From assembly GCA_024277875.1 (NCBI GenBank), contig JAJRUI010000112.1, positions 1 to 44,999 on the forward strand: a DNA stretch of 44,999 nucleotides, read 5' to 3'. Each line of letters starts with the position of its first letter. The first letter of the stretch is position 1. The notes beneath the pieces are model-generated. The model was given only the letters and a program-made list of their open reading frames with translations. It made no database searches and had not been told where the DNA came from. Source of the stretch: Deferrisomatales bacterium (GTDB taxonomy: Bacteria; Desulfobacterota; Deferrisomatia; Deferrisomatales; Deferrisomataceae). Made by a program: the position numbers and the translations under genes. This document shows, in pieces, positions 354 through 29,381 of this stretch.

Positions 354-473
354 CGGGGTGGCGCCCGGTTCCGGGCCGGGTGCGGGTTCAGCACCCGATC
401 GCCGCGCACCGGACACTCTTGGTGCGCGGCGAGCCGAGGGGCCGCACCCGGCGCTCCACCAGGCCCCACCCCG
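354..473 (+). repeat. Long hairpin element, copy A, upstream of an HDOD gene
   Basis: An imperfect inverted repeat of 120 bases. The inner stem is a perfect 12 bp (399-410 with 421-432) around a 10-base loop. A middle stem pairs 375-385 with 442-452 (11 bp), and an outer stem pairs 354-361 with 466-473. It is closely related to the element at 27,805-27,996: unpaired as well as paired stretches are shared (GGTTCCGG, CCGATCGCCGCGC, CCCGGCGCTCC), and stem bases change in pairs between copies. It ends 52 bases before the ATG of the HDOD gene. It could be a structured RNA leader or a palindromic repeat element; I do not recognise a known riboswitch. Confidence 0.7.
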
Positions 474-524
474 ATATCCCCAAGAGAGAAAAGGCAAACT
501 GGCAAAACATAGGAGGAGAAAACC

Positions 525-1358
525 ATGGGCCCTGCCGACGTGCTCCGGACGGTCTACGCCCGGGTCCAGACGCTGCCCCCGTTGCCCGCGGCCGTCCCCA
601 GGATCCTGGCCCTCGCGGCCGACCCGGAGGTCGGCACCCGGGAGATCACCGGTGTGCTTTCCCGGGATCCGGCCCTGGCCGCCGACGTGCTCAAGGTGGC
701 CAACTCGGCCTACTACGGGTTCCGCCGGGAGATCGACAGCCTGGACCGGGCCGTGGCCCTGCTGGGCGTCAACATGGTCCGGTCCCTGGCGGTGTCGGTG
801 GGCGTGGCCCGGGTGCTCCCGCCCGCCCGCACAAAGGGGTTCCGGCAGGAGGGCCTCTGGGTCCACAGCGCGGCCGTGGCCACGGCCGCGAGGGGGCTGT
901 GCCGCCGCACCGGCCGGGCCGACGGGGAGCAGTTGTTCCTGGCAGGCCTGCTCCACGACGTGGGCAAGATGGTGTTGGCCCACCACTTTCCCGGGCCGTT
1001 CGGCCGCGCCCTGGCCGCGGCCCGGGCCGACGGGACCCCGTTGCCCGACGCCGAACGCGCCGAGGTCGGGTTGGACCACGCCGCAGTGGGCGGGATGCTC
1101 CTGGACCGGTGGAACTTTCCGGAAGTGCTCCGGGCCCCGGTGACCGGCCACCACGCAGACCGCCCTGCCGACGGCGGGGCGGCCCTGGTGGCCGCGGCCG
1201 ACGCCCTGGCCCGCCAGGCGGGCATCGGGGACGGCGGCAACCCGGCCCCGCCGGAGGACGTTGCCGGCGATCTGCCGGCCGACGTCTTCGAGGCCGAGCG
1301 GGCGGCCCTCGAGGCCGCCCGGGACGAGATCGAGGCGTTCGCCGGGGCTATGGGGTGA
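525..1358 (+). CDS. HDOD domain protein
   Basis: A 277-residue cytoplasmic protein made almost entirely of an HDOD domain (about residues 15-215), the HD-related domain of bacterial signalling proteins. It keeps the HD pair (H144, D145 in LLHDVGK) and a GHH motif (residues 208-210), so a metal site may survive, although most HDOD domains have no shown enzymatic activity. It carries no extra receiver or output domain. The start is set by AGGAGG about 8 bases upstream. The hairpin element at 354-473 lies in the leader. Its stop overlaps the end of the convergent GH13 gene by 11 bases. HDOD proteins often act in c-di-GMP, motility or stress signalling; which one applies here cannot be told. Confidence 0.88.
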   Translation: MGPADVLRTVYARVQTLPPLPAAVPRILALAADPEVGTREITGVLSRDPALAADVLKVANSAYYGFRREIDSLDRAVALLGVNMVRSLAVSVGVARVLPPARTKGFRQEGLWVHSAAVATAARGLCRRTGRADGEQLFLAGLLHDVGKMVLAHHFPGPFGRALAAARADGTPLPDAERAEVGLDHAAVGGMLLDRWNFPEVLRAPVTGHHADRPADGGAALVAAADALARQAGIGDGGNPAPPEDVAGDLPADVFEAERAALEAARDEIEAFAGAMG

Positions 1359-27481: not shown

Positions 27482-27669
27482 GGTCTGCATCCTCCTTCGA
27501 GGGGTTGTGGAATCGGGTCTCCCGGCCGGGAGGACCCCGGACCGTACGCGTACCATAGCAAAGCGCGCCAGGAAGTCCAGAAAAAAGACGGATCAGGTCA
27601 TGTATTATTTTAGCCCGTCCTGGCCCCCCATCAGCGGTTTCTGCTAGCCTTACGGCGCCCCGCAGCACC

Positions 27670-27694
27670 GCAGGCTGCTGAAAAAGCAGCTTGC
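27670..27694. repeat. REP-like hairpin copy
   Basis: GCAGGCTGC and GCAGCTTGC form a stem with one G-T mismatch around TGAAAAA. The copy at 38,066-38,089 has the same design with TTGC/GCAA in place of CTGC/GCAG, so the stem is kept while its bases change. Downstream GTGGAGGGGGTGCCAAATC also resembles the sequence following the 38,066 copy. Confidence 0.65.
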
Positions 27695-27804
27695 GGGCGC
27701 GCCCGTGGAGGGGGTGCCAAATCTCGAGGCTTGAAAAGCGGAAAAGCCCTTGGGCGGGGTTTTTTGTTAACCCGGTGACAAAACGGGCGCACTTTAGCGG
27801 CGGT

Positions 27805-27996
27805 GAGGGGCAAGGGGCTTGGTTCCGGCCGGGCGCGAGTGCGGCGTCCGATCGCCGCGCCTCGTGATGCCGCTGTTTGCCGGTCGGTCCGGGCCTCGAC
27901 AGCTGAACCCTTGGCGCCTGGAGATACTCCGGACGTTCGAACGACGCGGCGAGTCAAGGAGCCGCGCCCGGCGCTCCGCCAAGCCCCTTGCCCCTC
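27805..27996 (+). repeat. Long hairpin element, copy B, upstream of the phosphatidyltransferase gene
   Basis: An inverted repeat of 192 bases. The outer stem is a perfect 18 bp (27805-27822 with 27979-27996; GAGGGGCAAGGGGCTTGG). Inner stems use GGGCGCG with CGCGCCC, and TCGCCGCG with CGCGGCGA. The apical loop is about 80 bases longer than in copy A (354-473). Shared blocks include GGTTCCGG, CCGATCGCCGCGC, GCGGCGAG and GCCGCRCCCGGCGCTCC. It ends 57 bases before the downstream ATG, nearly the same distance as in copy A. Confidence 0.72.
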
Positions 27997-28052
27997 CGGT
28001 CAGGGGTCGATAGCGTCAATTGATCCGCCGGTGGTCGGCGGCAGGAGTCCCC

Positions 28053-29381
28053 ATGCCGGTCTACGTGGAGATCTTTTTCGAGATCGTGCTGCCCACCGTG
28101 CTGCTGGTGGGGGCGGAGCGGTTCGCGGTGTACCGGTACCTGCGCACCCCCCGGCAGGTGGCGTGGGTGCGCAACTGCCCGCTCCTCCACCCCAACGCGA
28201 TCAGCCGGGCCCGGTATCCCATGGGGTTCGTGGCCGTGGCCCTGCTGCACTACGGGTGGCCCCGGACGGCGTTCCTGTTCTTCGTGTTCTGGATGATCAC
28301 CGACCTGACCGACGGCGACATCGCCCGCCGGTGCGGGCTGTCCACCGAGGAGGGGGCCACCATCGACCCCCTGTCGGACAAGCTCCTGTATACCCCCGTG
28401 ATGGTGTACTTCGCGTTCCAGGGGCTGTACAACCCGTGGGTGGTGGGGCTGTTCCTGCTGTTCGACTTCCTGGGGCAGTTCTCCCGCCGGTTCATCCGCC
28501 AGAAGGCGGCCAACCTGTTCGGCAAGGCCAAGACGTTCCTGGTGGTCGTGCTCCTGGCGGTGACCGCGGTGGAGTGGATCTACGGGCCGCTGCCGATCGG
28601 CCGGGTGATCCCCCCCCTGCTGGGGTTCTGCACCGCCCTGGCCCTGTGCTCGGCCGCGTTCAAGGTGATCCCCAACTACTGGTACGCCAACATCTTGAGC
28701 CTGATGAACCTGGTGTGCGGCCTGGCCGGGATCTGGGTGATCCTGACCGGCCGGCCGCCGGTGTACGCGTTTGCCCTGGTGTTCCTGGGGCAGTTTCTCG
28801 ACCTGTTCGACGGCCGGGCGGCGGAGCGGTGGGGGTCGACGCCCCGGGGCGAGATCTTCGACGACGTGGCCGACGGCACCAGCTTCGGTGTGACGGTGGG
28901 GTTGATCGTCACCACCTCGTTCGACAACCGGTGGTGGGGCGTGGCCCTGGGTGGGGTGTACGTGGCGGCCACGATTTACCGGCTGGTCCGGTTCGTGGTG
29001 GAGAAACGCCGGGGAGGGGTGCAAGGGGGGGTGAGCACGTTCGCGGGCATGCCGTCCCCCGGCGGCGCCCTGGTCGCCGGCACCGCGTGCCTGCTGCTCC
29101 AGGGGGACCTGTGGAAGGGGGCGCTCGTGCTGGCCAGTGCGGTGCTCATGGTGTCCCGGGTGCCCTACGCCCACTTCGGCCGGGCCGTGTTGCCCAAGAT
29201 CCCCCGGATCGTCCGGGTCCTGTCGCTGGCCCTCTTTCTCGTCCTCCTGGCCCACGGGGTGCGCCGCCGGGACTTCCTGGCGCCCCTGGAGATCGTGTAC
29301 GTGGCGTCCCTGGCGTACCTGCTGTCCCCCCTTCTCGACTGGCTGCGCGGCAGGAAAGCCGGTCCCCCCGCCCGGGGGTGA
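28053..29381 (+). CDS. Double-domain CDP-alcohol phosphatidyltransferase
   Basis: A 442-residue membrane protein with two CDP-alcohol phosphatidyltransferase domains in one chain. The first motif is complete, D84-x2-D87-G-x2-A-R-x8-G101-x3-D105-x3-D109. The second is D250-x2-D253-G-x2-A, then G266-x3-D270-x3-D274, with spacing one residue short and Glu in place of the usual Arg. Each is surrounded by several TM helices. Such domains move a phosphatidyl group from CDP-diacylglycerol to an alcohol (glycerol phosphate, serine, inositol). Single-domain enzymes usually have 180-260 residues and dimerise, so this may be an intramolecular dimer. Substrates cannot be assigned. The ATG at 28053 has AGGAG 5 bases upstream; a hairpin element occupies the leader. 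Confidence 0.9.
   Translation: MPVYVEIFFEIVLPTVLLVGAERFAVYRYLRTPRQVAWVRNCPLLHPNAISRARYPMGFVAVALLHYGWPRTAFLFFVFWMITDLTDGDIARRCGLSTEEGATIDPLSDKLLYTPVMVYFAFQGLYNPWVVGLFLLFDFLGQFSRRFIRQKAANLFGKAKTFLVVVLLAVTAVEWIYGPLPIGRVIPPLLGFCTALALCSAAFKVIPNYWYANILSLMNLVCGLAGIWVILTGRPPVYAFALVFLGQFLDLFDGRAAERWGSTPRGEIFDDVADGTSFGVTVGLIVTTSFDNRWWGVALGGVYVAATIYRLVRFVVEKRRGGVQGGVSTFAGMPSPGGALVAGTACLLLQGDLWKGALVLASAVLMVSRVPYAHFGRAVLPKIPRIVRVLSLALFLVLLAHGVRRRDFLAPLEIVYVASLAYLLSPLLDWLRGRKAGPPARG

Follow-up and report, generated by a model that had tools for sequence, protein, structure and literature searches.

A probable IS630-type MITE family with a covarying palindromic core in the Deferrisomataceae

The stretch of DNA analyzed here (the window, 44,999 nucleotides from a Deferrisomatales bacterium) carries two long hairpins with covarying stems, each lying shortly upstream of a start codon. 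Such a hairpin is very probably the core of a non-autonomous element of the IS630/Tc1-mariner type (a MITE), whose stems are maintained as proposed below. The elements share their ends with an element that encodes a DDE transposase, they are accompanied by a TA duplication, and they are short, present in many copies, and polymorphic between close relatives. A preliminary description of the window had considered either a structured, perhaps regulatory RNA or a mobile palindromic element. The second of these readings was borne out by the large number of copies, the terminal inverted repeats like those of IS630-family transposons, the TA duplication, and the empty orthologous sites.

Both hairpins were located where they had originally been placed, at 354 to 473 and 27,805 to 27,996, and the unpaired blocks reported to be common to them were recovered. 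Dinucleotide shuffles served as controls for their folding. Region 340 to 490 (copy 1) had a folding energy of -88.7 kcal/mol where the shuffles averaged -70.9 (z -4.4), and region 27800 to 28000 (copy 2) one of -122.7 kcal/mol where they averaged -99.9 (z -5.1); 0 of 200 shuffles folded as well as either copy. The original limits covered the core, but the whole elements are longer, at about 320 to 510 and about 27765 to 28035.

Copy 1, like all features described here on the plus strand, starts with a diverged left terminal inverted repeat of end type 1 (TATCGAGACCTTCAAGCGTATGGCCGA) at 320 to 346, as aligned to the family consensus TATAGAGACCTTCAAAAGTATTGCCGC. The palindromic core, which is the reported hairpin, spans 353 to 474 (R1 covariance model, 110.4 bits, E = 7e-17) and is a short variant in which about 60 to 65 nt of apical sequence is missing. 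The tail and the inner right terminal repeat (..CTGGCAAAAC) follow at 475 to 510, as judged by alignment to CCGGCAAAACTTTCGTTGGTCTCTATA of other copies; the outer ~17 bp of this repeat is no longer recognizable. At 511 to 520 lies AGGAGGAGAA, from its sequence the presumed ribosome-binding site of the HDOD-domain gene at 525 to 1358 (PF08668, E = 3.5e-58). This site (window 511 to 525) occupies the expected place of the outer right repeat of copy 1, which presumably was truncated or drifted into a functional site.

Copy 2 has a left terminal inverted repeat of end type 2 (TGTTAACCCGGTGACAAAACGGGCGC, 5 mismatches to TATTAACCCGGCGACAAATTAGGCGC) at 27765 to 27790 and a full-length core at 27807 to 27994 (R1 covariance model, 177.7 bits, E = 1.3e-28). 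Its right end, at 27995 to 28035 with an approximate outer limit, is a degenerate type-2 end (CAGGGGTCGATAGCG...ATCCGCCGG), the best match being the type-2 right end. The gene downstream, at 28053 to 29381, encodes a CDP-alcohol phosphatidyltransferase (PF01066, E = 6.3e-35). Both gene identities and the position of the hairpins ahead of an ATG were as first described, with 51 bases separating 473 from the ATG at 525 and 56 bases separating 27996 from the ATG at 28053. Any effects of the elements on these two genes would be incidental. Another dispersed repeat (CAGGATGCTGAAAAACCCC..GGGTTTTTCAGC and GGTTGCGGAAAAAGCAACCTGC motifs) adjoins many elements; it occurs in the window at 27600 to 27760 and in the flanks of L005, L007, L010, L017, L021, and L022, and the insertion site of at least one element, L010, is a TA of this repeat (CTGC|TA).

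When copy 1 was used as a blastn query, 90 pieces were found in its own genome, often as a left and a right arm around a variable middle. Alignment of flanked copies showed that the likeness extends far past the hairpin, up to terminal inverted repeats adjoining TA. The elements are ~240 to 270 bp long, with the window hairpins as their cores; short reading frames in single copies aside, this length leaves no room for a transposase. As the preliminary description had suggested, the genome and its relatives were scanned with a covariance model, which was built from 26 copies. In the own genome it detected at least 71 copies, and in the complete genome of a relative (G001) at least 146; both are minimum counts, since no more than 150 candidates were scored in each genome. 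Among 297 genomes of the phylum, the model matched 4, which are all four genomes of the family, and gave no match in the 293 others; the copies are numerous and dispersed, and within this set of genomes they are restricted to the family. Counts of short patterns were dropped as too noisy at this G+C content.

Most copies carry inverted repeats of ~27 bp at their ends. End type 1 is TACTAAGACC..TATTGCCAG, with variants. An intact IS630-family element in G001, encoding a 343-amino-acid transposase (DDE_3, E = 1.4e-41), is bounded by TACTAATACCTACAAAAGTATTGCC and TACTAAGACCTTCAAAAGTATTGCC, which are type-1 ends. In the own genome, the sole DDE_3 match is a C-terminal transposase fragment that runs directly into a type-1 repeat. 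End type 2 (TATTAACCCGGCGACAAATTAGGCGC) matches the ends of a second IS630-family element in G001. End type 3 (TACCAAGTTGCGTTCAAA) had 95 matches in G001, whereas its reversed control had 0, and no widely spaced pair of such ends enclosing a transposase was recognized there. Some type-3 pairs in G001 are only ~60 to 115 bp apart, too close to hold a core, and such coreless mini-elements lie at 2494203 to 2494279, 2871150 to 2871225, and 3026690 to 3026764, among others. In a fourth type of flank, no inverted repeat is clearly seen.

Of 134 copies whose ends were classified, 83 had both ends of one type in the normal order, 3 had flipped ends, and 5 had mixed ends; the others had two like ends, a single recognizable end, or none. 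In the window, the ends are of type 1 in copy 1, where the right end is eroded, and of type 2 in copy 2. Copies with mixed or like ends, for example, L063 (1440 to 1618), L040 (2896 to 3100), L175 (2936 to 3123), and L197 (3082 to 3285), point to recombination between elements.

Orthologous sites were compared between G001 and G003, two close species. The TA target duplication was exact at L188/L245 and L168/L237, where the element lies between two TA and the relative has one TA, and at L074/L169 an insertion in G003 is absent from G001. For an unbiased estimate, 22 sites were picked without regard to G003. The core was absent at 10 of these, kept at 7, and partial or divergent at 5, two of which were inverted cores. 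Divergence at the unbiased shared sites was 4.9% in the core, 3.5% in the noncoding flank, 4.7% in the element ends, and 4.3% in coding sequence, so that no constraint on the core was detected there and it was no better conserved than its flanks. An apparent constraint on the core (1.5% versus 5.3%), obtained at sites picked by core score or exact core match, was rejected as an ascertainment bias and was gone in the unbiased set. After insertion, in a set that includes five ascertained sites, 12 stem pairs were broken, 3 were restored, and 0 showed double changes.

In two cases the core was inverted in place, with matching flanks and ends: at L194/L241 the inverted comparison scored 396 of 408 versus 94 in the same orientation, and at L180/L251 it scored 360 of 380 versus 63. 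These are 2 of 14 shared cores, the other 12 (7 unbiased, 5 ascertained) having the same orientation. At L163/L238 and L213/L247, the core was deleted and the ends were kept. In-place inversion, together with deletion of the core between conserved ends, points to strand switching from arm to arm.

The stems keep their pairing through paired changes, as had been proposed from the two window copies, and covariation beyond these two was real and strong. Across 122 distinct copies, 26 of 40 pairs showed double changes. Standard pairs filled 94.0% of pair cells versus 84.2% in shuffles, a control that loses the relatedness of the copies, and the covariation score was 0.283 versus at most 0.054 with the partner slid, a control that keeps it; the alignment was fitted to the structure under test and leans toward that structure. 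For single stem changes, subfamilies were defined by average linkage, which replaced a single-linkage clustering that was too coarse. A·C outnumbered G·U by 31 to 17, 41 to 27, or 39 to 32, depending on the clustering threshold, and no preference for G·U was found among these changes. Selection for RNA helices should favor G·U, so A·C that is at least as common argues against selection on a sense RNA at each site. The mostly decaying stems after insertion argue against such selection at each site, and the lack of core constraint in unbiased orthologues argues against site-specific selection on a sense RNA.

Placement was assessed against genes predicted by a codon-usage gene caller. None of the 108 mapped copies was inside a gene; 56 were in tandem sense, 21 in tandem antisense, 16 convergent, and 14 divergent, with 1 at an edge. 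The tandem sense excess was significant (56 versus 21, P = 8e-5). Sense copies lay a median of 92 nt from the preceding stop versus a median of 160 nt from the next start, and in both orientations the cores were nearer the preceding stop. In G001, GC skew indicated that 60 of 89 elements ran along the leading strand (P = 0.001). This trend seemed strongest near the presumed terminus at ~1.04 Mb and was mixed near the presumed origin at ~3.05 Mb. Replication direction alone did not suffice to produce the excess of sense copies: gene direction given replication had a likelihood ratio of 7.2, and replication given gene direction had one of 3.7. The bias is genuine and is explained only in part by replication; the elements may also avoid promoters, or one orientation may be more harmful than the other.

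For the MITE, the following mechanism is proposed. A transposase of the IS630 family, produced elsewhere in the cell, would recognize the ~27-bp terminal inverted repeats and move the element, in trans, into a TA, which would thereby be duplicated; the ends, the TA duplication, and the empty sites are observed. The core is a long quasi-palindrome of nested stems that is not selected at its site once inserted and that decays, disappears, or undergoes inversion or deletion between its own arms, as seen at orthologous sites. Complementarity between subfamilies would persist in the lineages that are still multiplying. Most likely, one arm is rewritten as a copy of the other by strand switching between them, a process that can also invert the segment in between; in addition or instead, intact palindromes may move better, so that the stems are kept. 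As reported previously, template switching between inverted-repeat arms homogenizes the arms and inverts spacers (PMC8604942) and yields multi-base compensatory changes (PMC8794818). The paired changes, the lack of a wobble bias, and the flips are all consistent with it. Strand switching is the most likely cause of the covariation on the basis of the two inversions and this literature.

Another explanation of why the stems are kept, quite possible though less favored, is that the element forms an RNA or DNA structure that aids its own spread, either by protecting a transcript or as a single-stranded DNA hairpin exposed to the transposase or the replication machinery, and that selection on the stems acts only in copies that multiply. 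Such a role bears on the keeping of the stems alone and does not conflict with the MITE reading. It is favored by stems that are kept between subfamilies and decay at fixed sites, by the persistence of the core with several unrelated end types, and by the leading-strand orientation in G001. However, the coreless type-3 elements suggest that the core is dispensable for movement by type-3 ends. A bolder version, which we regard as rather unlikely, is that the core is itself a selfish module, exchanging one set of transposon ends for another (three or more inverted-repeat types and the fourth flank type) and flipping in place, its conserved RNA or DNA structure serving its own spread or persistence and not the adjacent genes.

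It is very improbable that the core is a structured cis-regulatory RNA, a riboswitch or leader of the downstream gene, whether dispersed by a mobile element or recruited from one. The strong covariation, the internal loops conserved across subfamilies, the sense bias in tandem contexts, and the placement of both window copies just upstream of start codons would all agree with such an RNA. However, 21 copies are antisense, another 16 are flanked by converging genes and so have no gene start downstream of them, and the sense copies are closer to the preceding stop than to the next start. A G·U preference is lacking, and the unbiased orthologues are unconstrained, with the core absent from 10 of 22. 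No Rfam family reached its gathering score in the window, and relaxed thresholds gave nothing credible in the window and relatives, in agreement with the earlier failure to match a riboswitch consensus. The preliminary description had named repeated placement before start codons as support for an RNA, and numerous copies in either orientation, also at 3' ends, as evidence against it. The antisense, convergent, and divergent copies do not follow the former pattern, and the latter was observed, although the covariation is real. A site-specific regulatory RNA is not supported. REP/BIME-like elements moved by a REP-associated tyrosine transposase, suggested by the abundant intergenic palindromes, are contradicted by the long inverted-repeat ends with TA duplication, as in IS630-family elements, and by a size and structure unlike those of REPs, and this origin can practically be discounted.

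Some observations weigh against the MITE reading itself. The sense excess is only partly explained by replication, a passive filler would not have to be as well conserved as the core is across several end types, and the type-3 ends have no recognized autonomous partner in G001; transposition is inferred, not observed.

The family is an IS630-type MITE of the RUP/ERIC/Correia kind, with an unusual core common to several end types. No earlier description of it was found in the literature searched. RUP, the repeat unit of pneumococcus, is a MITE attributed to IS630-Spn1 (PMC2229807). Like the family described here, it is intergenic, numbers about a hundred copies, and has a TA target, IS630-like ends, and transcripts that would form a stem-loop (PMC2229807). 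However, RUP is 107 bp long with 9-bp ends, compared with ~240 to 270 bp and ~27 bp here, and the present family has a long palindromic core found with at least three different end types. ERIC/IRU and Correia/NEMIS are likewise short and TA flanked, with a strong long stem-loop, and for NEMIS, effects on neighboring mRNAs have been proposed (PMC2229807); they occur in other hosts, and no sequence relation to the present family was found. Chimeric elements or a shared core are not mentioned in that review (PMC2229807). Template switching at quasi-palindromes (PMC8604942, PMC8794818) likewise involves in-place inversion between arms with arm complementarity kept, but here the process is inferred for a dispersed repeat in bacteria, by comparison of orthologous copies. 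Riboswitches and leader RNAs in Rfam share covarying stems and conserved loops ahead of a gene, whereas this core matches no family and failed the tests of placement, orientation, and neutrality.

These results call for caution: the element passed the covariation tests strongly and failed the tests of site-specific RNA function, and covariation alone would have classed it as a new regulatory RNA. With one core on several types of transposon ends, cores flipped or deleted at orthologous sites, and a complete genome, the family provides material with which to measure arm-to-arm strand switching in bacteria.
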